This document shows, piece after piece, positions 42,104-61,860 of a stretch of 64,000 bases of DNA. The position numbers and the translations under genes were made by a program. The notes under the pieces are model-generated. The model did not search any database, was not told the origin of the DNA, and worked only from the letters and a program-made list of their open reading frames with translations. The DNA comes from Pelagibacteraceae bacterium AG-404-P07 (lineage in GTDB: Bacteria; Pseudomonadota; Alphaproteobacteria; Pelagibacterales; Pelagibacteraceae), in assembly GCA_003216235.1 (NCBI GenBank), contig QCJE01000002.1, forward strand, positions 38,246-102,245. Reading direction: 5' to 3'. Every line of letters starts with the position of its first letter. Within the stretch, counting starts at the first letter, position 1.

Positions 42104-43435
42104 ATGACTAAAGTAGCAATTATAGGAGCTGGACCATGTGGACTATCTATGCTCAGAGCATTTGAGTTAGCTGAAAAAAATGGTGAAAAAATTCCTGAAA
42201 TAGTTTGTTTTGAAAAACAAGAAGATTGGGGAGGATTATGGAACTATAATTGGAGAACTGGTTCTGACCAATATGGAGACCCTATACACAACAGTATGTA
42301 CAGGTATCTTTGGTCAAATGGACCAAAAGAATGTTTAGAATTTGCAGATTATTCGTTTGATGAACACTTTGGAAAACCCATTCCTTCATTCCCGCCTAGA
42401 GCAGTTTTGTATGACTATATCATAGGTAGATTAAACAAGGGAAAAATGAAAAGTAAAATCAAATTTAATACTGGGGTAGTAGGGACAATATTTAAAAATG
42501 ATAAATTTGAAATTAGTTATCAAGACAAAGTAAATGATAAAATTTTGAAAGATATTTTTGACTATGTGGTTGTATCAACTGGTCATTTTTCAGTTCCTTT
42601 TATCCCAGAATATGAAGGAATGAACTCTTTCCCTGGAAGAATTATGCATTCCCATGATTTTAGAGATGCTGAAGAATTTAGAAATAAAAATGTAATTGTT
42701 TTAGGAAGTAGTTATTCTGCAGAAGATGTTGCACTCCAATGCAACAAGTACGGGGCCAAAAGTGTAACAATAGGATACAGACATAATCCTATGGGATTTA
42801 AATGGCCAAAAGGAATGAAAGAAGTCCATTACCTTGATAAATTGGAAGGCAAAAAAGCAATTTTTAAAGATGGTACAGAACAAGAGGCAGATGTTGTAAT
42901 TTTATGCACTGGTTATCTTCATCATTTTCCTTTTTTAGAAGAGAGTTTGCAATTAAAAACTAGAAATAGATTATACCCACCAAAACTATACAAAGGAGTT
43001 GTTTGGCAGAATAATCACAAACTTTTATATCTTGGCATGCAAGATCAATTTCATACTTTTAATATGTTTGATTGTCAGGCTTGGTACGCAAGGGATGTAA
43101 TAATGAATAAGATTAAAATTCCAAATGATAAAGAAATTGAGACTGATATTAATAAATGGGTTGCTATGGAGGAAAAATTAGAAAATCCAGATCAAATGAT
43201 TGATTTTCAAACTGAATATACAAAAGAGCTTCATGAAATGTCAAATTATCCAAAAATTGATTTTGAATTAATTAGAAAGCATTTTAAAGAATGGGAACAT
43301 CATAAAGTTGAGGATATATTAACTTATAGAAACAAATCTTTTTCTTCACCAGTGACAGGTTCTGTTGCTCCAATTCATCATACACCATGGGCAACTGCTA
43401 TGGATGATTCATTAAAAACTTTTTTAGATAAATAG
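42104..43435 (+). CDS. tmm: Trimethylamine monooxygenase (FMO family)
   Basis: A 443-aa flavin-containing monooxygenase. FAD motif IIGAGPCGLSML at residues 6-17, the NADPH-linked FMO identity region FPGRIMHSHDFRD at about 176-188, and VLGSSYSAEDVALQ near 199-212 are visible. Length and the conserved MHSHDF pattern agree with bacterial Tmm. It uses NADPH and O2 to convert trimethylamine to TMAO; it can also oxidise other amines and dimethyl sulfide. The gene is divergent from gpsA and convergent with tmoV. Confidence 0.9.
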   Translation: MTKVAIIGAGPCGLSMLRAFELAEKNGEKIPEIVCFEKQEDWGGLWNYNWRTGSDQYGDPIHNSMYRYLWSNGPKECLEFADYSFDEHFGKPIPSFPPRAVLYDYIIGRLNKGKMKSKIKFNTGVVGTIFKNDKFEISYQDKVNDKILKDIFDYVVVSTGHFSVPFIPEYEGMNSFPGRIMHSHDFRDAEEFRNKNVIVLGSSYSAEDVALQCNKYGAKSVTIGYRHNPMGFKWPKGMKEVHYLDKLEGKKAIFKDGTEQEADVVILCTGYLHHFPFLEESLQLKTRNRLYPPKLYKGVVWQNNHKLLYLGMQDQFHTFNMFDCQAWYARDVIMNKIKIPNDKEIETDINKWVAMEEKLENPDQMIDFQTEYTKELHEMSNYPKIDFELIRKHFKEWEHHKVEDILTYRNKSFSSPVTGSVAPIHHTPWATAMDDSLKTFLDK

Positions 43436-49235: not shown

Positions 49236-51575
49236 ATGTCGCAAACTACTTTAGATATTAGAGAACCTGGTCTCAATGTGCTACCACCTGGAGTTGAAAG
49301 GCATGTTGTAAATGCTGGTGGTCTTACTGGTTTACAAATTTTTCCTGATGATGAAATAGAAATCATAAATGATGAGGGGAATCAAATTTGTGAAATAATT
49401 TGTTTTAATAAAGACGGAAAGTCTGAACTTGGAATTTTAAATCAAAAGGAAAATGGTAAAGAAAGTTTTATTAAAGAAATTTTAAAAAGAAAAGACGAAA
49501 GTTCTTTAGTTACAAATCTTCAATTAAAAAAAAGAAATTTAGATATAAATAAATCCAAATCATCTGTTCTTTTTGATAATAAAACTCCTAGTGGCGAAAA
49601 AGTTAAAATAAAATCAAAAGATAAATGTTATGTAATTTTATCAGCACCACAAAATGACATGTTGGTAAGTGAGCAAAATCCCTCAAGTGATTTAACAGTA
49701 TTCATAAAAAGAGCTAAAATTATTAATGATAAAGAATTATCAATTATACCTGATCCAGTTTTTGAACCAAATTTTGAAAAAAATATTGATAGAGAAACTT
49801 CAATCTCTTATCAAGTAAAAGAAGGTGATTATATTCAGATTATAAGTCCTGCGGGAAGACAATGTTCTGACTTTGTGGCATTTGATACAAGAAAACTTGA
49901 TAAGAAATTAGAGAAAGGCCTTGATTGGCAAACAACAAGGACTTTCATGGGTAATACTTTTCCTGGACCAGGGTTATTCTCAAAATTTTATGATACTGAT
50001 CATGAACCATTGATTGAAGTAATTAGAGATACTGTTGGAAGACACGATACATTTAATCTTGCTTGTACTTCAAAATATTATGAAGATGCGGGTTATTTTG
50101 GTCATGCTAATTGTTCTGACAATTTAAATAATTCAATGGAAAAATATGGTGTCCAAAAACAAAAAGGTTGGCATGCAATTAACTTATTTTTTAATACCTC
50201 TGCCTCAGGTTTAAATTCTGTAATTTCTGATGAGTCATTCGCAAGACCAGGTGATTATGTAATATTTAGAGCTTTAAAAGATTTAACTATTGGTACTACT
50301 GCATGTCCAAGTGATATTGATGCATGTAATTCATGGAATCCAACTGATATTTTTGTTAGAACTTATGACAAAAAAAAAGAATTTTCAAAATCATTTGCTT
50401 TTAGAATGAAAACTGACTCAGAAAAAAAACTAACTAGAAATTCTGGTTTTTATGAAAGAACATCAAAACTAACAAGAAACTTTGTTGATGCAAGAGGATT
50501 TTGGTTACCTAATGATTATACAAAACATGGTGTAGTTGAAGAATATAACGCTTGTAGAGAAAAGGCAGTTCTAATCGATTTATCATCTCTAAGAAAATTT
50601 GAAATAATTGGTCCAGATGCTGAGGAGTTAATGAATTATTCATTAACAAGAAATATCAAGAAGCTCTCAGTTGGTCAGGTTGTTTATTCTGCAATGTGCT
50701 ATGAAAATGGAACAATGTTTGATGATGGTACTTTATTGAGATTAAGTGAGACAGGATTTAGATGGATTTGTGGAGATGAGTATGCAGGAGAATGGTTAAA
50801 AAAAGTTGCTAAAAAGAAAAATTATAAAGTAAATATAAAGAATTCCACCGATCAAATTAGTAATGTTTCAGTGCAAGGTCCTAAAAGTAGAGAAATATTA
50901 AAAAAATTAATTTTTACTCCTCCAACTCAACCATCTATTGATGAGCTAGAGTGGTTTAGATTTACAATCTGCAGAATTGAAGAACTTCAAGGAATTCCCT
51001 TGATTGTTTCTAGAACAGGTTATACTGGTGAACTTGGTTATGAGGTTTGGTGTCACCCAAAACATGCTCCTGAAGTTTGGGATAAATTATTATCAGTAGG
51101 AAAAAACGAAGGTTTAATTCCTGCTGGTTTTGCAGCTTTAGATAAATTAAGGATAGAGGCAGGTTTAATTTTATTTGGTAACGAATTTGACGGACAACAG
51201 GATCCCTTTGAAGCTGGAATAGGTTTTTCTGTCCCGCTGAAAACAAAAGAAGAGGATTTCATTGGAAAAAAAGTATTAAAAGAAAGAAAAGCAAATCCAC
51301 AAAAAAAACTTGTTGGTTTAGAGCTTATTGGAAAAGAACCTGCTGGCCATGGTGATTGTGTGCATGTTGGAAGGTCTCAAGTTGGAATAGTAACAAGTGG
51401 TTGTTTATCAACAACTTTAAATAAAAATATTGCTTTATGTAGAATCGACAACCAATATTCAGAAATAGGAACTGAAGTTGAGGTTGGTAAAATTGATGGT
51501 CATCAAAAAAGAATTTCTGCAAAAGTAGTTGCTTTTCCACACTTTGATCCAAAAAAAACTAGAGTTAGATCTTAA
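49236..51575 (+). CDS. tdm: TMAO demethylase (DUF1989 + THF-binding GcvT fusion)
   Basis: A 779-aa protein. Residues about 180-375 form a DUF1989 domain with three candidate zinc cysteines, Cys277, Cys357 and Cys364 (ACTSKY, ACPSDIDAC), and from about 405 to the end a GcvT-like domain with VSVQGPKSREIL, VSRTGYTGELGYEVWC and the C-terminal THF-binding pattern. The N-terminal ~170 residues resemble a second degenerate DUF1989-like region. Tdm splits TMAO to dimethylamine and formaldehyde, which can be caught on THF. It is divergent from tmoX and one base overlaps the next gene. Confidence 0.9.
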   Translation: MSQTTLDIREPGLNVLPPGVERHVVNAGGLTGLQIFPDDEIEIINDEGNQICEIICFNKDGKSELGILNQKENGKESFIKEILKRKDESSLVTNLQLKKRNLDINKSKSSVLFDNKTPSGEKVKIKSKDKCYVILSAPQNDMLVSEQNPSSDLTVFIKRAKIINDKELSIIPDPVFEPNFEKNIDRETSISYQVKEGDYIQIISPAGRQCSDFVAFDTRKLDKKLEKGLDWQTTRTFMGNTFPGPGLFSKFYDTDHEPLIEVIRDTVGRHDTFNLACTSKYYEDAGYFGHANCSDNLNNSMEKYGVQKQKGWHAINLFFNTSASGLNSVISDESFARPGDYVIFRALKDLTIGTTACPSDIDACNSWNPTDIFVRTYDKKKEFSKSFAFRMKTDSEKKLTRNSGFYERTSKLTRNFVDARGFWLPNDYTKHGVVEEYNACREKAVLIDLSSLRKFEIIGPDAEELMNYSLTRNIKKLSVGQVVYSAMCYENGTMFDDGTLLRLSETGFRWICGDEYAGEWLKKVAKKKNYKVNIKNSTDQISNVSVQGPKSREILKKLIFTPPTQPSIDELEWFRFTICRIEELQGIPLIVSRTGYTGELGYEVWCHPKHAPEVWDKLLSVGKNEGLIPAGFAALDKLRIEAGLILFGNEFDGQQDPFEAGIGFSVPLKTKEEDFIGKKVLKERKANPQKKLVGLELIGKEPAGHGDCVHVGRSQVGIVTSGCLSTTLNKNIALCRIDNQYSEIGTEVEVGKIDGHQKRISAKVVAFPHFDPKKTRVRS

Positions 51576-53413: not shown

Positions 53414-54883
53414 ATGACAGATCTAGAAAAGCACGTAAATAAACCTGGTAGAGATAAACTTGTAAAACAAGTTAGAGCTAAAATAAATGAACTTGGAGTT
53501 GAGTATATTTTTTTTCAATTTATATCAGTTACTGGAAGAGTAGTTGGTAAAGGTATTCCTTCCGATCACTGGGAAAGAACTTGTGAAAAAGGATTTCAGC
53601 TAGTTTACGGTGCTACTGCCAACTTATTTTTAGATAGACATAACAACTACATAGGATACGGGCCTGAAGCTAAAGAATTAGTTGGAATTCCAGATCCTGA
53701 AACTTTCTGCCAACTGCCCTGGGATAAAAAAGTTGGAAGAGTATTCGTTACTTGTTTTAGAAACAGAGAAGAAAGAGAAAATCCAGGTGGTCATTTAACA
53801 TCTGATTGTAGAGGAAATTTGAGAATAATTGCTGAAGAATTTAAGAAAAAACATGGTTACCAATTGAGAGTTGGTACTGAACCTGAAATGATGTGGTTAA
53901 CAAAAAATCCAGATGGCACTCCAACAGGTAAAGGATTTTCTAAACCTTATTGTTATCATATTGATCAATTTGAATCTCTCAGACCTGTTTTCATGAAAGT
54001 AATGGAATACGCTAGAGCAATGGGCTTTGATATGATTCAAGGTGATCATGAAGATGCTCCAGGACAACTAGAATTAAACTGGATGTACGATGATGTCTTA
54101 AGGAATGCAGATAGACTTTCAACTTATAGACAAATCTGTGCACAAGTAGCAAGAGAATTCAATTTAATTGCTTGCTTTATGACAAAACCTTTTATGGGAG
54201 TATCAGCAAGTGGTTGTCACACTAACATGTCTTTATGGACAGGTGGTAAAGATAAGGTTAATAAATTAGGTCATAAATCTATTCCAGGAATGGACGAGGT
54301 GTTTAGCTATGTAGAGGGTGGCACAAATACATTTATGCCTGATACTAAGGATGTTCAATTACCAGGTAAAGTGGGATTATTGTCTATCGGTGGAGTAATG
54401 AAACATTTAGGAGCACTTACCGCAATCGGGTCATCAACTGTTAATTCTTATCGAAGATTATGGGATCAAGGATTCTGGGCACCTGTTTATGCAGATTGGG
54501 GTTATCAAAATAGAACTTGTGGATTAAGAGTTTCTGCTCCAGGACGATTTGAATATAGATCAGTAGACTCAATGCATAATCCTTATTTGATGGGAGCAGG
54601 TCTATTAAAAGCATTTGATGATGGTTTAACAAATAAAATTGATCCAGGTAAACCAGAGTCTAGAAACATTTATGAAGCTCAAAAAGCTGGAAAAGATGTT
54701 AAAAAATTACCTTTAAGTCTTGGTGAAGCATTAGATCAATTGGCTGATGATAAAGTTATTCAATCAGCGATGCCAGATGAAATGTATAAGATATTTCATT
54801 GGTATAAGAATGATGAATGGGAAAAATTTTTAGGTGCAACAACTCAATGGGATCTGGACACTTATCTGGATTGTCTACCATAG
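53414..54883 (+). CDS. Glutamine synthetase-family ligase, second paralog
   Basis: A 489-aa GS-fold enzyme with the expected catalytic patterns: GTEPEMMWL (metal glutamate), GDHEDAPGQLELNW, SGCHTNMSLW, NSYRRLWDQ and APGRFEYRSVDS. It is longer than the nearby gmaS (441 aa) and only distantly similar, so it is a distinct subgroup, probably a gamma-glutamyl amide or amine ligase. Its place at the head of mgsABC, behind the FAD oxidoreductase, suggests it acts on an amine substrate other than methylamine or on an intermediate. The exact substrate is unknown. Confidence 0.75.
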   Translation: MTDLEKHVNKPGRDKLVKQVRAKINELGVEYIFFQFISVTGRVVGKGIPSDHWERTCEKGFQLVYGATANLFLDRHNNYIGYGPEAKELVGIPDPETFCQLPWDKKVGRVFVTCFRNREERENPGGHLTSDCRGNLRIIAEEFKKKHGYQLRVGTEPEMMWLTKNPDGTPTGKGFSKPYCYHIDQFESLRPVFMKVMEYARAMGFDMIQGDHEDAPGQLELNWMYDDVLRNADRLSTYRQICAQVAREFNLIACFMTKPFMGVSASGCHTNMSLWTGGKDKVNKLGHKSIPGMDEVFSYVEGGTNTFMPDTKDVQLPGKVGLLSIGGVMKHLGALTAIGSSTVNSYRRLWDQGFWAPVYADWGYQNRTCGLRVSAPGRFEYRSVDSMHNPYLMGAGLLKAFDDGLTNKIDPGKPESRNIYEAQKAGKDVKKLPLSLGEALDQLADDKVIQSAMPDEMYKIFHWYKNDEWEKFLGATTQWDLDTYLDCLP

Positions 54884-54910
54884 TCTTTAAAAATATAGAG
54901 AGGGAAAGAT

Positions 54911-55855
54911 ATGTGCGGAATAGCAGGATTAATACATAGAGGCAAATCTTCAAAAGTTGGTCATGAATTGCAAGGAATGTTGCAAGCTTTAAAACATAGA
55001 GGAGAAGACTCTACTGGTTACGCTTTGTATGGGGACACAGATGGAAAAAATTTCATTATGCGATTTAAGGTAGGCGAAAACGTTGGTGAAGGAAGCACAT
55101 CTGTAGCAGAGGACGTATCTGTTTATGATGAAAGAAAAAAAATTGTTGATAGCTATCTTTTAGAGATGGGTGCAAAAATCATTAAAGAAGAGAGAATTCT
55201 TCCATACTCTTTAAGATATGAAATTGAATATAATAAAAAAGATTTATTAGAGTTTTCTCAAAAAATAGAAAGTATTCCAGGTGTTGAAATTCTCTCAATG
55301 GGTAAATCTTTAGAAGTAATTAAAGATCTTGGGAATGCTAAAATGGTTTGTGACAGATACAATTTAGATAAACTTGTTGGTACTCATGCAATAGGTCACG
55401 CTAGAATGGCAACAGAATCTGGTGTAGATATTAAATCAGCTCACCCATTTTGGGGCTACCCATTTAGTGATGTGTCTGTAGTTCACAACGGTCAACTAAC
55501 TAATTATTGGAATAATAGACGTGCTTTAGAAAATAAAGGTATGAGGTTTATGTCTGAGTGTGACTCAGAACTTATTGCAGTTTACATTGCGCAAAAAATG
55601 AGAGAAGGAGCATCGTTAGAAGAAGGTATGAAAGAATCTCTTATTGGCTTAGATGGAGTCTTTACTTATTTTGTTGCTACTAAAGACTCTTTAGGAATGG
55701 CAAAAGATACTATGGCTGCAAAACCATTGGTTCTTTATGAGTCTGATGATTTAGTGGCTATGGGTTCAGAGGAGATAGCAATTAGATCAATTTTACCACA
55801 AGAAATCGACACATATGATCCATTCGATGGAGAGGTTAAGGTATGGCAAATTTAA
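54911..55855 (+). CDS. mgsA: N-methylglutamate synthase subunit A, class II amidotransferase-like
   Basis: A 314-aa class II glutamine amidotransferase domain: Cys2 in MCGIAGLI is the N-terminal nucleophile after methionine removal, and LKHRGEDSTGYALYG, GHARMATESGVD and PFSDVSVVHNGQLTNY are glutaminase features. In the mgs complex it hydrolyses gamma-glutamyl-methylamide or glutamine and passes the amine on to the synthase core. It overlaps mgsB by 13 nt. Family relatives are GlxB and the GltB N-terminus. Confidence 0.85.
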   Translation: MCGIAGLIHRGKSSKVGHELQGMLQALKHRGEDSTGYALYGDTDGKNFIMRFKVGENVGEGSTSVAEDVSVYDERKKIVDSYLLEMGAKIIKEERILPYSLRYEIEYNKKDLLEFSQKIESIPGVEILSMGKSLEVIKDLGNAKMVCDRYNLDKLVGTHAIGHARMATESGVDIKSAHPFWGYPFSDVSVVHNGQLTNYWNNRRALENKGMRFMSECDSELIAVYIAQKMREGASLEEGMKESLIGLDGVFTYFVATKDSLGMAKDTMAAKPLVLYESDDLVAMGSEEIAIRSILPQEIDTYDPFDGEVKVWQI

Positions 55856-56697
55856 AGAATGTAACAAAAAAAACCAAGGCCCAAGCAATGGGTATGCACA
55901 CTGAAGTTCTAACCGGAAGAACACAGCAAAAATTTTTTAATCCTGATGAAGCTGAAAATTTTTATTACTTTGGAACTTACGATGTAGATTTTAACAAGAG
56001 AACAGATCTTGATGTAAAGAATATGACAGCAGCCGATGCTAATAAAAAAATTGATAACTTAATGAGCCAGGGTTATGGAACTATAGTAATTAAAAACCCT
56101 CAAGGAAAACACAGTATCGGTGTTGGAATATTAAATAAACTAAACTTAATTTTTGAGGGAAGCTTAGGATATTTTGGAATGGGTTCCTGTGATGGTCCAA
56201 CTGTACGTATAAATGGAAGAGTTGGCTGGTCTTGTGCTGAAAATTTAATGGCAGGCAAAGTAGTGATAGAAAAAAATGCTGGTTCATGTTTTGGTGCAGC
56301 TATTAGAGGTGGAGATTTAATATGTAAAGGGAGCGTTGGTGCTAGAACAGGTATTGATATGAAAGGTGGAACCATAATTATTGGTGGAGATGCGGGCGCT
56401 TTTACAGGTTTTATGATGCAAAGAGGTAGAATAATAATACTAGGTGATGTTGGAATAAATCTAGGCGACTCTATGTATGATGGGACAATTTTCGTAGGTG
56501 GAGAAATTGGTTCATATGGTAGTGATGCAGTAGATTCCGAACTGACTAAAAGCGATCAAGATTGGTTAAAACGAAAACTAAAGGTCGCTGAAATCGGAGA
56601 AAATTTTGATGTTAGTAAAATGAAAAAAATAGTAGCTGGTAAAAAACTTTGGAATTACGATAATTTAGAACCTACAGAGAAAAAAGGAGCAATTTAA
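55843..56697 (+). CDS. mgsB: N-methylglutamate synthase subunit B, GltB3/FwdC-like
   Basis: A 284-aa protein dominated by the GXGXG beta-helix motif seen in the C-terminus of glutamate synthase and in FwdC: GSLGYFGMGSCDG, GRVGWSCAENLMAGKVV, GSCFGAAIRGGDLI, MKGGTIIIGGDAGAFTGFM and GDVGINLGDSMYDGTIFVGG. The subunit forms a scaffold between glutaminase and synthase active sites. It shares one base with mgsC's start codon, so the three subunits are coupled. Confidence 0.85.
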   Translation: MANLKNVTKKTKAQAMGMHTEVLTGRTQQKFFNPDEAENFYYFGTYDVDFNKRTDLDVKNMTAADANKKIDNLMSQGYGTIVIKNPQGKHSIGVGILNKLNLIFEGSLGYFGMGSCDGPTVRINGRVGWSCAENLMAGKVVIEKNAGSCFGAAIRGGDLICKGSVGARTGIDMKGGTIIIGGDAGAFTGFMMQRGRIIILGDVGINLGDSMYDGTIFVGGEIGSYGSDAVDSELTKSDQDWLKRKLKVAEIGENFDVSKMKKIVAGKKLWNYDNLEPTEKKGAI

Positions 56698-58106
56698 TGG
56701 CTAAGAAAAAAAATAAAAAGAAATCAAATGGTAAAGGTGTTGGAGGAAAAGCTGATGTTCATACACATGAAGAAGGTAAAAGAAATAAAAGTTTACTAGG
56801 CCATAATGCTATTTTTACTCCAGAAGTAATAGATGATATTCATATAAAATCACAGTTGGGACGATACAGAATGCGTGGAATGGCATTAATGAAAAAAATT
56901 CCAACATTTGATGATTTAGTTTTCTTACCAGGAACTTTAACAAGGTTTGTAATCGAAGGTTATAGAGAAAAATGTGAAACAAAAACTATAATTGGTCCAA
57001 GATGTGAAAATCCTATTGAATTAGATATACCAGTTTATATCACTGGTATGAGTTTTGGTGCGCTTTCTTATGAGGCAAAAACTGCTTTAGCAAGAGGTGC
57101 AACAATGGCTGGAAGTGCTACTTGTTCAGGAGAAGGTGGAATGATTCCTGATGAAAGAAGATATTCAGAAAAATGGTTTTATCAATGTATTCAATCAAGA
57201 TATGGATTTAACCCACATCATGCCCAGCTTGCAGATGGAATTGAAGTTTTTATTGGACAAGGACAAAAAGTTGGAATGGGTGGTCACTTAATGGGTCAGA
57301 AAGTTACAGACCAAGTTGCTGAAATGAGATCATTACCATCTGGAATAGACCAAAGATCTCCAGCAAGACATCCTGATTGGTTAGGTCCTGATGATTTAGC
57401 TTTAAAAGTTGAAGAATTAAGACAATTAACAAAAAATAAAGTTCCAATTCAATTAAAATTAGGTGCATCAAAAGTTTATGATGACGTTCGTATGGCAGCT
57501 AAATGTGATCCAGACTCAATTTATCTTGATGGTATGGAAGGATCGACAGGAGCTGGTCCACATATAGCAGCAGCAAATACCGGTATTCCTGGCATTGCAG
57601 CAATTAGAGAAGCTAGAAGAGCATTAGATGATGTTGGTAAAACTGGGAAAGTAACATTAATTTATGCAGGTGGTGTAAGAGATGGTGCTGATATGGCAAA
57701 AGCCTTAGCTTTAGGAGCAGATGCTATTGCTATTGGCACTGGATCGATGATCGCATTAAATTGTAACAAAGATATTCCAGAGGCAAATTTTGAAAAAGAA
57801 ATGGGAGTAAAAGCAGGTGAATGCTATCATTGTCATACTGGAAGATGTCCAGTAGGTGTTGCAACGCAAGATCCTAAACTTAGAGCAAGATTAAATCCGG
57901 ATGATGCAGCATTGAGAGTTTATAATTATTTACACTCAATGACTCTTGAGGCTCAATTGTTAGCTAGAGCATGTGGTAAAACAAACATACATTCTCTAGA
58001 ACCTGAGGATTTAGCAGCACTAACTTCTGAAGCATCAGCTCTAGCAAAAGTTCCTTTAGCAGGAACTAACTATACTGTTGGAGTAGATAATTATCATAAA
58101 ATTTAA
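56697..58106 (+). CDS. mgsC: N-methylglutamate synthase subunit C, GltB2-like FMN enzyme
   Basis: A 469-aa FMN-binding barrel of the glutamate synthase central domain. FMN-site GMSFGALSYEAKTALARG, LKLGASKVYDDVRMAAK, YLDGMEGSTGAGP and IAIGTGSMIAL are visible, and the iron-sulfur cysteines are in CYHCHTGRCPVGVATQDP near the C-terminus. The N-terminal 30 residues are an odd polybasic tail (MAKKKNKKK...), also seen in the next gene. This is the synthase subunit making N-methylglutamate from methylamine and 2-oxoglutarate or glutamate. Confidence 0.87.
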   Translation: MAKKKNKKKSNGKGVGGKADVHTHEEGKRNKSLLGHNAIFTPEVIDDIHIKSQLGRYRMRGMALMKKIPTFDDLVFLPGTLTRFVIEGYREKCETKTIIGPRCENPIELDIPVYITGMSFGALSYEAKTALARGATMAGSATCSGEGGMIPDERRYSEKWFYQCIQSRYGFNPHHAQLADGIEVFIGQGQKVGMGGHLMGQKVTDQVAEMRSLPSGIDQRSPARHPDWLGPDDLALKVEELRQLTKNKVPIQLKLGASKVYDDVRMAAKCDPDSIYLDGMEGSTGAGPHIAAANTGIPGIAAIREARRALDDVGKTGKVTLIYAGGVRDGADMAKALALGADAIAIGTGSMIALNCNKDIPEANFEKEMGVKAGECYHCHTGRCPVGVATQDPKLRARLNPDDAALRVYNYLHSMTLEAQLLARACGKTNIHSLEPEDLAALTSEASALAKVPLAGTNYTVGVDNYHKI

Positions 58107-58117
58107 AGGTAACTATT

Positions 58118-58534
58118 ATGGTTAAGAAAAAAAATAAAAAAAAAGTTACAAAATCAGTAGCTGTTAAAGACCAACAATTAGGTAAAAAAAAAGAAACGGC
58201 TAGAGAAAAAATGATTGGTCAGTCAATTGGTTATAGATATGACGTTAATCTTCTTCCAGACTATACTAAGATAACTCCTTTTTTAAAAAAGTATGTCGAA
58301 GCTATGGGTTGGGATGATTTAAATTGGTTAGAAGATGTTCATATGGGATACGAAGAAGGAAGACCTGCAGTTTTTTGTAGAAACGCAAATGGCTGGGTTA
58401 CAATTCCAAAATCAATTAAACTACCTAACAATCAACAAGACAGAGATATGATAGCTAGAGAACTTTTAGTTAAATTTCAAATGTCTCCAAAACATCCTCT
58501 TGTTGATTTAAAAAAAGCATACTTAAAATTTTAA
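58118..58534 (+). CDS. Small conserved protein in the mgs operon (138 aa)
   Basis: No recognised family. The protein begins MVKKKNKKK, nearly identical to the start of MgsC (MAKKKNKKK), and the DNA of the first nine codons is also almost the same. The rest has a conserved-looking core GYRYDVNLLPDYTKITPFLKK and RPAVFCRNANGWVTIPKSIKLP, and no cysteine pair or membrane segment. It is 11 nt after mgsC in the same transcript. A structural or regulatory partner of the mgs enzyme is likely. Confidence 0.65.
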   Translation: MVKKKNKKKVTKSVAVKDQQLGKKKETAREKMIGQSIGYRYDVNLLPDYTKITPFLKKYVEAMGWDDLNWLEDVHMGYEEGRPAVFCRNANGWVTIPKSIKLPNNQQDRDMIARELLVKFQMSPKHPLVDLKKAYLKF

Positions 58535-58536
58535 TA

Positions 58537-58600
58537 AAACAATCTATAGTTGATTTTTTTTTAAAACCTCTTGCTAATTCAAGGTTTTAGAGAATTGTTT
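58537..58600 (+). promoter_or_regulatory. Nested hairpin in the leader of the Amt gene
   Basis: AAACAAT (58537-58543) and ATTGTTT (58594-58600) can close an outer stem, and AAAACC...CTTG (58563-58573) with CAAG-GTTTT (58580-58588) an inner stem. No T-run follows it. It lies between the mgs operon and the ammonium transporter start at 58662, so it may act as a leader structure or mRNA boundary. AT-richness means chance pairing is possible. Confidence 0.4.
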
Positions 58601-58661
58601 CATTTGTCACACGTTCCTAAATTTAATAGGGTTTTTAAAAATAAATAAGGAGATAGAGAAT

Positions 58662-60062
58662 ATGACTGATCAGTTAGCTGCTCTAACTACTATATTTACA
58701 GAATTTTACTACTGGGTAACAGTGGTTCTAATGTTTTTAATTCACGTTGGTTTCTGTATGTATGAAGTTGGAGCTTCTCGATACAAACATCACCAACATA
58801 CTCTTATGAAAAATACAATGCTGATACCTTTGGTAACAGTAACCTGGTTTTTATTTGGTTGGTGGATTTATTGGGCTTTCCCAACAGGACCGGGATTAGC
58901 ACCTTCAATAATGAATGAAAGCACTGCGCTAATTACAGATGACTCTGCTTTTAGTGCTACTTGGTACAAAGCAACAAGTGATTTAATGGCTGTAAACTTA
59001 GGAGATCACATTTCTGGTGTCTTCTGGGCTGCATTCCTTTTATTCTCTTGGACAGCTGCTTCTATCGTTTCAGGAGCAATTATTGAAAGAATTACAACTT
59101 TTGCATTTGGAATTTTAGCAATTGCAATAGGTTCAGTATTTTGGACAATCGATGCTGCTTGGGGATGGCACTTTGATGGCTGGATGCTTAAACTATTGGG
59201 ATACCATGATGCTTATGCATCAGGAGTAATTCACGCGATTGCGGGTGGATTTGCTTTAGGTGTTCTTATGGTTTTAGGACCAAGAATTGGAAAATTTTCA
59301 TCTAGCGGTGAACCGAGAAACATTGGGCCAAGAAATCCTTGGCTAGTTACAATTGGATTATTTCTAATTTATACTGGTTTCTGGGGCTTCTACGCAGCAT
59401 GTAATATACCAATCTTTGATCTTGGACCTGAATACGGTATGGAAGGCATAAGTTATTGGACTGCTACAAACATATACGTAACCCCTACTACACTTAGTGG
59501 TATTACTTTTAACTTCTTGATGTCATTATCAGGAGGATTATTAGCCGGTTATTGGATTGCAAAAGGTGATCCTTTCTGGACATACTCAAGTGGACTAGCA
59601 GGTATCATATGTGCTTCAGCTGGAAATGATTTATATCATCCAATTCAAGCAATGATTATTGGTATGATCGGTGTTGTGATTTCATACAAACTACATTACT
59701 GGGTTGAACGTAAGTTCAAAATTGATGATGCAGTTGGTGCGGTTGCAGTACATGGTTATGCTGGATTTATTGGTCTAGTGATATGTGGTTTTGTTCTTAA
59801 TGGTTACCCATCATCTGGTTACAGTGTTGGTGCTATGTGGGACGGGACAACTTATGCTACAATTAACCCATTAGGACAATTCTTAGGAGCATTAATAATG
59901 TTCGTAGTTCTTGGACTAATACCAGGTTATGTCATTGCAAAAGTACTTCATGGAATGGGTAAATTAAGAATACCTCGTGATGTGGAGATTGCAGGACTTG
60001 ACTATGAAATAATGGAAACTGCTAAAAGGGACGAAAGAACTGTTTCGTCTGCAACCAGGTAA
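58662..60062 (+). CDS. amtB: Ammonium transporter family protein within the methylamine cluster
   Basis: A 466-aa Amt/Mep/Rh protein with eleven predicted membrane segments. Twin-histidine positions are visible in ASGVIHAIAGGFALG and in AVAVHGYAGFIGLVICG. It differs from standard AmtB in the length of some loops (the PGLAPSIMNESTALI periplasmic loop) and in a C-terminal tail ending SSATR. It probably takes up ammonium and, because of its surroundings, possibly methylammonium. No glnK gene is adjacent, and the next gene is a 76-aa membrane protein. Confidence 0.88.
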   Translation: MTDQLAALTTIFTEFYYWVTVVLMFLIHVGFCMYEVGASRYKHHQHTLMKNTMLIPLVTVTWFLFGWWIYWAFPTGPGLAPSIMNESTALITDDSAFSATWYKATSDLMAVNLGDHISGVFWAAFLLFSWTAASIVSGAIIERITTFAFGILAIAIGSVFWTIDAAWGWHFDGWMLKLLGYHDAYASGVIHAIAGGFALGVLMVLGPRIGKFSSSGEPRNIGPRNPWLVTIGLFLIYTGFWGFYAACNIPIFDLGPEYGMEGISYWTATNIYVTPTTLSGITFNFLMSLSGGLLAGYWIAKGDPFWTYSSGLAGIICASAGNDLYHPIQAMIIGMIGVVISYKLHYWVERKFKIDDAVGAVAVHGYAGFIGLVICGFVLNGYPSSGYSVGAMWDGTTYATINPLGQFLGALIMFVVLGLIPGYVIAKVLHGMGKLRIPRDVEIAGLDYEIMETAKRDERTVSSATR

Positions 60063-60074
60063 AGGAGAAACAAT

Positions 60075-60305
60075 ATGGCAACAGTCACAAATTGGATCGA
60101 TCACCTGAACAAACCTGCAGAAGAAGTTGTAGGTGCTGTTTATCCTGGTGCTGGATCCTCAGAAGGATTGCTAGTAATTTTAGCAATTATTTTATGGGTT
60201 GGTTGGCATGTTTTAACCGCAAAGTCCGAAAGTGATGAGCTTGAAAGACTTTCAAGGAAAAGACATGGTCCAAATGATCATAAAAGTAATATTACCGACT
60301 GGTAA
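60075..60305 (+). CDS. Small single-pass membrane protein after Amt
   Basis: A 76-aa protein: an N-terminal soluble segment (MATVTNWIDHLNKPAEEVV), one membrane segment (GLLVILAIILWVGWHVL, about residues 30-46), and a charged tail rich in Ser/Arg/His. It lies 12 nt after the Amt gene with a good ribosome site (AAAGGAGAAAC) and ends before a strong terminator, so the two are one transcript. It could regulate or stabilise Amt; family unknown. Confidence 0.75.
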   Translation: MATVTNWIDHLNKPAEEVVGAVYPGAGSSEGLLVILAIILWVGWHVLTAKSESDELERLSRKRHGPNDHKSNITDW

Positions 60306-60322: not shown

Positions 60323-60351
60323 GGGCGCTACATTAAGTGGCGCCCTTTTTT
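60323..60351 (+). terminator. Rho-independent terminator after the Amt unit
   Basis: GGGCGCTAC (60323-60331) pairs with GTGGCGCCC (60337-60345), nine base pairs with a GT pair, and is followed by TTTTTT. It is 18 nt beyond the stop of the 76-aa gene. Confidence 0.93.
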
Positions 60352-60361
60352 ATAATTCAAA

Positions 60362-60517
60362 ATGTCTGAAGAAGATAATAATGAAGAACTAAGACCAAGC
60401 AAAATGCGAGGTGTTGCTTTTCCAAAAGCAAAATACGGAGTCATAATAGCAGTAATAATAATTGTTATAGTAAACTTAATGTATTACAGGGAAACAATTT
60501 TTTCTTTATTTAGGTAA
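60362..60517 (+). CDS. Small membrane protein (51 aa) upstream of gmaS
   Basis: A 51-codon frame from ATG 60362. The N-terminus is acidic (MSEEDNNEEL), then comes a basic RPSKMRGVAF, then one membrane helix (VIIAVIIIVIVNLMYY, about residues 27-42). It starts right after a terminator and ends 17 nt before gmaS, filling the gap neatly. No known family. Composition resembles genuine small proteins rather than random AT-rich frame. Confidence 0.6.
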   Translation: MSEEDNNEELRPSKMRGVAFPKAKYGVIIAVIIIVIVNLMYYRETIFSLFR

Positions 60518-60534
60518 TTATGTTAATTTAATTT

Positions 60535-61860
60535 ATGTCAAAAAATTTATTCAAAATTGCTAAAGAAAAAAGAATTAAATATTTTTTAATAAGTTTTGTA
60601 GATTTGTTTGGAGTATTAAGATCAAAACTAGTTCCAGCACATGCAATAAAAGAAATGCAAGAAGCTGGTGCTGGATTTGCAGGATTTGCTGCTTGGCTAG
60701 ACATGTCGCCTGCAGATTCTGATATGTTTGGTATTCCTGATCCTGATAGTCTTATTCAATTACCATGGAATAAAGAAGTTGGTTGGCTAGCATCAGATCT
60801 TTGGATGAATGGAAAACCAGTAGAAGCTTCACCAAGAATAATACTTAAAAATCAAATTAAAAAATTAGAAAAAAAAGGTCTTACAATGAAAACTGGTGTA
60901 GAATGTGAATATTTTCTTATTTCGCCAGATGGCAATTCAATAGCTGACCCAAGAGATACTCAATCAAAACCTTGTTATGACCAATCAGCTTTAATGAGAA
61001 GATATGATCTAATTAAAGAAATTTGTGATTGTATGATTGAAATGGGATGGGGCCCTTATCAAAATGACCATGAGGATGCTAATGGTCAATTTGAAATGAA
61101 TTGGGATTATGATAATTGCCTAATTACTGCTGATAGACATACATTTTTTAAATTTATGGTTAAAACTATTGCTGAAAAACACGGATTAAGAGCTACATTT
61201 ATGCCCAAACCATTTGAAAATTTAACAGGAAATGGATGTCATGCGCATATTTCTGTTTGGGATGGTAAAAAAAACAAATTTTTAGATAAATCTAACAATC
61301 TAGGTTTGAGTAAAATAGCTTATAATTTTCTTGGAGGTGTAATAAAAAATGCGTCTTCTTTATCGGCTTTTTTTAATCCAACTATAAATAGTTATAGAAG
61401 AATAAATGCTCCACCAACAAAATCTGGAGCATCATGGTCACCAAGTAGTATTTCTTATACAGGTAATAACAGAACACATATGATTAGAATTCCTGATCCT
61501 GGAAGATTTGAATTAAGACTAATGGATGGTTCAGCCAACCCTTACCTTTTACAAGCTAGTGTATTGGCAGCAGGTTTAGACGGTTTAAAAAATAAAATTG
61601 ATCCTGGAAAACCATTAAATTGTAATATGTATGAGGACTATGAAAAATATCCTGATCTACCAAAACTTCCAGACGAATTAGATCAATCTCTTGAAAAATT
61701 AAAAAATAATAAAGATATGAATGATGCTTTTGGTCATAAAACTATTAACAGTTATATTAAACTAAGAAAATCAGAAATTAATGAATTTAAACAAAAAGAT
61801 AATTTTGATAAAACAAAAGCTATTACTAGGTGGGAAAGAGATAATACGCTAGACTGTTAG
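60535..61860 (+). CDS. gmaS: Gamma-glutamylmethylamide synthetase (type III GS)
   Basis: A 441-aa GS-fold protein of the type III group. Motifs: MKTGVECEYFLI, NDHEDANGQFEMNWD, GNGCHAHISVWD, NSYRRINAPPT and ELRLMDGSANPYLLQASV. GmaS ligates methylamine to glutamate, using ATP, to give gamma-glutamylmethylamide. The length is close to characterised GmaS proteins, and the nearby mgs genes support it. Unlike the usual arrangement, it is not directly next to mgsABC but separated by the Amt unit and a terminator. Confidence 0.83.
   Translation: MSKNLFKIAKEKRIKYFLISFVDLFGVLRSKLVPAHAIKEMQEAGAGFAGFAAWLDMSPADSDMFGIPDPDSLIQLPWNKEVGWLASDLWMNGKPVEASPRIILKNQIKKLEKKGLTMKTGVECEYFLISPDGNSIADPRDTQSKPCYDQSALMRRYDLIKEICDCMIEMGWGPYQNDHEDANGQFEMNWDYDNCLITADRHTFFKFMVKTIAEKHGLRATFMPKPFENLTGNGCHAHISVWDGKKNKFLDKSNNLGLSKIAYNFLGGVIKNASSLSAFFNPTINSYRRINAPPTKSGASWSPSSISYTGNNRTHMIRIPDPGRFELRLMDGSANPYLLQASVLAAGLDGLKNKIDPGKPLNCNMYEDYEKYPDLPKLPDELDQSLEKLKNNKDMNDAFGHKTINSYIKLRKSEINEFKQKDNFDKTKAITRWERDNTLDC

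Follow-up and report, generated by a model that had tools for sequence, protein, structure and literature searches.

A divergent Amt-family transporter and a conserved small membrane protein form a candidate methylated-amine uptake unit in SAR11 bacteria

Two adjacent forward-strand genes at positions 58662-60305 of the window, the whole 64,000-nucleotide stretch of DNA analysed here, appear to form an uptake unit made up of a divergent Amt-type channel and a dedicated small membrane protein, an explanation whose full form, set out below, we hold at marginally better than even chances. The first gene (58662-60062) encodes a 466-amino-acid Amt/Mep/Rh-family transporter of a divergent subfamily linked to methylated-amine genes. 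The second (60075-60305), beginning 12 nt 3' of the Amt open reading frame (ORF), encodes a 76-amino-acid single-pass membrane protein that is a candidate accessory subunit. Amts are usually viewed as ammonium channels, with methylammonium as a laboratory analogue. Methylated amines are a marine source of nitrogen and carbon for SAR11 and roseobacters, and no transporter for methylamine itself is named in the accessible literature. The recovered genome (937 kb, 79% complete) belongs to SAR11 by gene content and gene order.

The identification of the transporter as an Amt is near certain. The ORF matches PF00909 (E=1.3e-51) with 176.1 bits, above the cut-off of 23.2, and scores 176.3 bits against TIGR00836, the NCBIfam model of canonical bacterial Amts, below its cut-off of 343.3. 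In an AlphaFold model of the read-through product of both genes (pTM 0.84 for the fusion) the Amt part has the Amt fold, and Foldseek matches the model to Sd-Amt1, AmtB, Mep2, Rh50 and Ks-Amt5 with E values down to 6e-16. The count of Amt paralogues proposed in a previous reading of the sequence gave two in the 79%-complete genome, the second lying on another contig and being of canonical type, so the window Amt is not the sole copy. Many genomes likewise hold both a subfamily and a canonical Amt. That reading's remark that the gene does not lie beside glnK is true yet uninformative, since a search for P-II genes (PF00543) found none anywhere in the recovered genome; the control search was positive in 13 of 14 genomes. 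Two SAR11 genomes (G043 and G026) carry adjacent Amt pairs of ~700 amino acids each (L106, L107, L128 and L129); L106, the one scanned, has a C-terminal SpoIIE-type phosphatase domain and is a possible Amt-based sensor.

Searches covering 197 genomes from the family, 385 from the class and 399 from the phylum recovered relatives of the window Amt in two clades, clade 1 at 56-100% and clade 2 at 39-49%. In a tree of 88 Amts the two clades together (63 of the 88 sequences) are monophyletic with a support of 0.998, apart from AmtB and the canonical alphaproteobacterial Amts, and the resulting subfamily spans Alpha- and Gammaproteobacteria. Comparison of the selectivity residues with AmtB, another check suggested earlier, revealed a different substrate site. 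Residues A103, F104, W140, F212 and C219 (AmtB numbering) occur in all sampled members, comprising 77 sequences and 18 further ones, whereas every one of the 25 canonical alphaproteobacterial Amts has F103, Q104, Y140 and W212, and 23 of them have S219. The pore core is kept in every sampled subfamily member: the twin histidines (H168/H318), the phenylalanine gate (F107, F215) and D160 are invariant, as is W148. Clade 1 has Tyr162, Tyr216 and Ser273, where clade 2 has Gly (sometimes Ala), Leu (once Met) and Ala, respectively. Position 219, which with F107 and W148 forms the S1 site of canonical Amts, is thus Cys throughout the sampled subfamily. An S219A mutant of AmtB, whose S1 site consists of S219, W148 and F107, is reported to show enhanced methylammonium uptake relative to the wild type (PMC10433425), and a change at this position therefore fits an altered methylammonium path.

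The order of genes along the stretch is a DUF1989-GcvT fusion, an FAD oxidase, a 489-amino-acid glutamine synthetase (GS)-like protein, an mgsABC-like set, a 138-amino-acid protein, the Amt, the 76-amino-acid protein, a 51-amino-acid protein and gmaS. The GS-like gene and the mgsABC-like set, here called set A, occupy 53414-58106 on the forward strand, with set A itself at 54911-58106. The 138-amino-acid protein (58118-58534, forward strand) is the final gene of this upstream mgs-like operon and holds the position of SAR11_1309 in HTCC1062 (order from PMC2704228); it has no match in Pfam or NCBIfam, and is 64-79% conserved adjoining the set-A mgsC in other families. Downstream, 60535-61860 (forward strand) encodes a 441-amino-acid type III homologue of the gamma-glutamylmethylamide synthetase GmaS/GlnT (TIGR03105, 623.8 bits) whose best PDB match is the type III glutamate-ammonia ligase 7cql (574 bits). 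The 489-amino-acid GS-like protein is farther from GmaS than this 441-amino-acid GS. A Tmm homologue at 42104-43435, with the flavin-containing monooxygenase 7d4k as its best PDB match and the trimethylamine monooxygenase 6kbw also strong, lies nearby together with a betaine-type ABC binding protein, and both fit a methylated-amine region. The DUF1989-GcvT fusion (49236-51575), 5' of set A, also occurs in Thioclava (L147, 5458-7827), where its neighbours are a clade-2 Amt and dmm genes. The 51-amino-acid ORF (60362-60517), single-pass and situated between a terminator and gmaS, carries the motif RPSKM..(F/W)PKAKYG; its counterparts in SAR11 relatives are 42-78% conserved and precede mgsABC set B or gmaS.

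Many SAR11 genomes have two paralogous mgsABC-like sets, one on either side of the Amt, with their largest subunits 50-55% identical (for example at L081, L082, L084 and L085). Relatives such as G026 have set B between the 51-amino-acid gene and gmaS; set A alone is present in the recovered sequence of the window genome, where set B was not seen. Sun et al. identified SAR11_1313-1315 of HTCC1062 as the best match of Methyloversatilis universalis MgsABC (PMC3160333), and by gene order these genes correspond to set B. The placing of the Amt between mgsABC and gmaS in the sequence-only reading consequently stands for position and for gmaS. The label 'mgsABC' is not secure, because the window set is paralogue A and not the set that, in HTCC1062, gives the best match to the proven enzyme (PMC3160333); for the same reason we infer, rather than observe, a 'methylamine-dedicated' Amt. 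Set A accompanied by DAO, the GS-like gene and the 138-amino-acid gene is widespread, occurring in 38 of 385 alphaproteobacterial genomes, and its function is putative.

The proposed link between this type of Amt and methylated-amine genes is borne out by comparison with a canonical control. In the stretches fetched around each Amt, 20 of 33 subfamily members have methylated-amine genes nearby, against none of 20 canonical Amts (Fisher p ~4e-6, shared ancestry ignored), where the markers were mgs, gmaS, dmm, tmm or set A, the inclusion of set A being an assumption; the other 13 subfamily Amts have no tested marker in the stretch. Linked loci with methylamine-type genes only, such as set-B mgsABC with gmaS, or dmm, and no set A, are L062, L068, L074, L078, L098, L099 and L145-L149. 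At genome level, among 385 genomes of the class, clade 1 occurs with set A in 31 of 37 cases (p=5e-33, shared ancestry ignored) across many families, and clade 1 or 2 occurs with some mgsC-like gene in 40 of 43. Within SAR11 the set-A mgsC is found in 65 of 69 amt-bearing genomes, and no set-A genome is without this Amt. Ruegeria conchae and Ponticoccus alexandrii have dmm genes divergent from amt, which is followed by a 71-amino-acid 'hypothetical protein', glxBCD-type mgsABC and glnT, while Thioclava and a Pseudomonas plasmid have the clade-2 amt and small protein near dmm-type genes. At one further locus (L097, in G226) set A and gmaS lie beside a clade-2 rather than a clade-1 Amt, an apparent replacement of Amt type in the same island.

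That the Amt and the small protein constitute a conserved two-gene unit can be stated with high confidence. Of 91 clade-1 loci, 87 have a Y-P-containing small ORF immediately 3' of the Amt. The four exceptions comprise the G282 locus, represented twice, in which the profile does detect a homologue, a locus that reaches a contig end, and a rearranged one whose partner is truncated. All 18 further subfamily loci, including those of Ruegeria, Ponticoccus, Thioclava and a Pseudomonas plasmid, have a like ORF in the same position, and no homologue was found beside the canonical Amts that were checked. The clade-1 profile detects clade-2 partners weakly (E ~2e-4 to 0.12, with the intermediate L133 at 1.4e-8), all of them directly beside the Amt; because the weakest of these scores overlap noise, homology rests equally on position and score. 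At L093 (G180) the small protein is apparently truncated and the set-A genes are inverted beside the Amt, reflecting either a true rearrangement or an assembly error. An intrinsic-terminator-like hairpin (60323-60345, forward strand) 3' of the 76-amino-acid ORF would close the unit and is conserved in 34 of 35 SAR11 loci. The previous suggestion that a single-pass protein is co-transcribed with the Amt up to a strong terminator is hence well supported at the level of sequence.

The 76-amino-acid protein and six sampled relatives have no match in Pfam or NCBIfam, and membership of a family known to either database was rejected. Positive charges follow the single hydrophobic segment in 72 of 73 proteins, which predicts an N-out/C-in orientation, and Tyr23, Pro24, Gly27, Glu30 and Glu52 are invariant in the clade-1 proteins (64 of 64). 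The two genes share a reading frame, which allowed a fold of the window's stop-read-through product to be computed from an alignment of 18 relatives that are naturally in frame, together with the separate proteins. In the read-through model the small protein forms a helix at 501-532 (pLDDT ~84), its N-terminal motif is of low confidence and the fold gives no interface score; the ends that the fusion tether connects are predicted to be on opposite faces of the membrane.

The 127-nt spacer upstream of the Amt had been suggested to form a leader of two nested stems, a claim that did not survive. Over its full length the spacer has a folding score indistinguishable from that of shuffled sequence (z=-0.11), its Amt-proximal part is not folded beyond expectation (median z -0.3), and a search of Rfam returned no family match. 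The inner hairpin (repeat I6; 58557-58594, forward strand), an A-tract, stem and T-tract, in all likelihood terminates the upstream operon. Compared over 37 distinct SAR11 spacers, it folds strongly in many close relatives, with z reaching -6.4 and a changed stem sequence where it is kept, and is lost in others. It lies 5' of a promoter-like element, TTGTCA and AATAGG separated by ~15 nt (58604-58630, forward strand), which falls in an aligned block in relatives, where TTGTCA-(15-16)-TATAGG is found immediately 5' of the Amt; the extended pattern gave 0 chance matches in 100 shuffles. The hairpin is therefore probably outside the amt mRNA. On the simplest reading the spacer would hold a terminator and then a promoter, leaving the amt mRNA with a short, unstructured leader. 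Retention of the inner stem in many relatives despite its altered sequence is what could be expected of a regulatory RNA leader controlling the Amt, but its terminator-like form, its loss in several relatives, its position 5' of the promoter-like block and the folding scores make such a leader very improbable. Accounts of the spacer as a structured RNA leader or riboswitch were thus rejected on the Rfam search, the single-sequence fold and the aligned relatives, in favour of an upstream terminator. The equivalent HTCC1062 spacer was listed by Meyer et al. without an RNA assignment (PMC2704228). Besides the promoter-like block, conservation of a DNA-like kind is seen in CAATCnnnnGTTGATT (58540-58555, forward strand), a possible operator that is aligned in most SAR11 relatives and conserved upstream of the Amt across SAR11 genera, and in CAATCnnnnGTTGAT, conserved after the stop codon in the SAR11 spacer alignment. 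CAATCnnnnGTTGATT has just one exact match in the recovered genome, and sites with one mismatch across that genome form no coherent pattern.

The alignment shows that the Amt retains the twin-histidine conduction path and phenylalanine gate, and that its periplasmic vestibule and S1 site have been remodelled through A103, F104, W140, F212 and C219. We propose that such remodelling would favour methylammonium, in binding or in passage, and probably together with ammonium. The channel would then deliver methylammonium, or return whatever has leaked out, to the gamma-glutamylmethylamide and N-methylglutamate enzymes encoded next to it. The small protein, its N-terminus outside, its Y-P-x-x-G-x-x-E motif at the membrane and its positive C-terminus inside, may be an accessory subunit that binds to the Amt trimer and shapes its outer vestibule or contributes to its stability. 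The hairpin before the Amt would belong to the previous operon and have no role in the transporter. A bolder version, which we regard as speculative, is that an Amt subfamily specialised for methylated ammonium needs a small single-pass subunit whose N-terminal segment partly builds or gates the outer vestibule. Clade 1 would then be adapted to methylammonium, and clade 2, which has smaller residues at 162 and 273 and dmm neighbours, possibly to dimethylammonium.

We rate a preference of the subfamily for methylated ammonium as about as likely as not. The unit might instead be an ordinary ammonium uptake or retention channel that recaptures NH4+ from the breakdown of methylamine or of a set-A substrate, with the small protein as a stability or regulatory factor replacing P-II. 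Amts generally carry ammonium, the twin-histidine pore is intact and no P-II gene was found in the SAR11 genome; moreover, the subfamily Amt is the only one detected in five sampled genomes (G282, G358, G371, G284 and G273) and may in those simply carry ammonium. This alternative is nevertheless rather unlikely given that the S1-site substitutions are invariant over two proteobacterial classes, that many genomes retain a canonical Amt as well, and that linkage to amine genes was never seen for the canonical Amts sampled. Less likely again is that the pair's partner pathway is set A (DAO, GS-like, mgsABC-like and 138-amino-acid genes), a putative route for an amine other than methylamine. Clade 1 tracks set A (31/37) far above set B (16/37, and 3/36 set-B-only genomes), and the set that best matches M. 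universalis MgsABC in HTCC1062 (PMC3160333) was not seen in the window genome. It also counts against the explanation preferred here that the strongest co-occurrence is seen for set A, a set of putative enzymatic role. A gmaS homologue is retained in the window, however, and in Roseobacteraceae the pair directly precedes set-B mgsABC-glnT, beside dimethylamine monooxygenase genes.

A separate question is whether the small protein acts on the Amt at all. It might be an independent membrane protein that travels with the operon, and the read-through model, which yields no interface score, neither favours nor disfavours contact between the two. Yet the partner stands directly after the Amt at practically all intact loci, in two Amt clades and many neighbourhoods, and is kept even at loci with no nearby amine gene, so that independence seems improbable. 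We consider the small protein to be probably a physical subunit of the Amt.

Linkage of amt to methylamine genes is already in the literature: amt is recorded as co-occurring with trimethylamine, dimethylamine and monomethylamine degradation genes in Rhodobacteraceae/Roseobacter and in HTCC1062, in passages of PMC7574528 and in Fig. 1 of PMC5520151. The subfamily and S1-site signature, and the small partner as a conserved companion, were not found in the open literature, the scope of the search; priority for signature and partner is not established. With its altered S1 site and conserved partner, this naturally occurring subfamily offers a route to the residues that set ammonium versus methylammonium selectivity, and allows one to ask if a subunit integral to the membrane can form part of an Amt. 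The hypothesis of a two-part methylamine/ammonium channel is directly testable.

The nearest known counterpart of the locus is SAR11_1303 to SAR11_1316 of HTCC1062, in which the gene order is as in the window (PMC3160333, PMC2704228, PMC5069961). The amt gene SAR11_1310 follows SAR11_1309 after a 125-bp spacer (PMC2704228), and by gene order it is the putative orthologue of the window Amt. The Rhodobacteraceae/Roseobacter and HTCC1062 amine clusters represent the same type of neighbourhood, and the passages describing them (PMC7574528, PMC5520151) contain no subfamily signature, small partner or comparison with canonical Amts. For the Amt family, the protein modulators listed in passages of a review of small-protein transporter modulators such as FeoC and LucB are P-II proteins (PMC10710835); FeoC/LucB-type modulators, as described there, are likewise small proteins tied to a membrane transporter. 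Ks-Amt5 (6eu6) and Sd-Amt1 (8qj3) are the closest solved structures to the window Amt by sequence and fold, and are described as sensor or receptor Amts, whereas the window Amt has no fused signalling domain. With Escherichia coli AmtB the window Amt shares fold, family and residues F107, W148, D160, H168/H318 and F215. It differs from AmtB in A103, F104, W140, F212 and C219, in the clade-specific residues at 162, 216 and 273, in falling below the TIGR00836 cut-off, in having no P-II partner gene in the recovered genome and in being paired with a small membrane protein.
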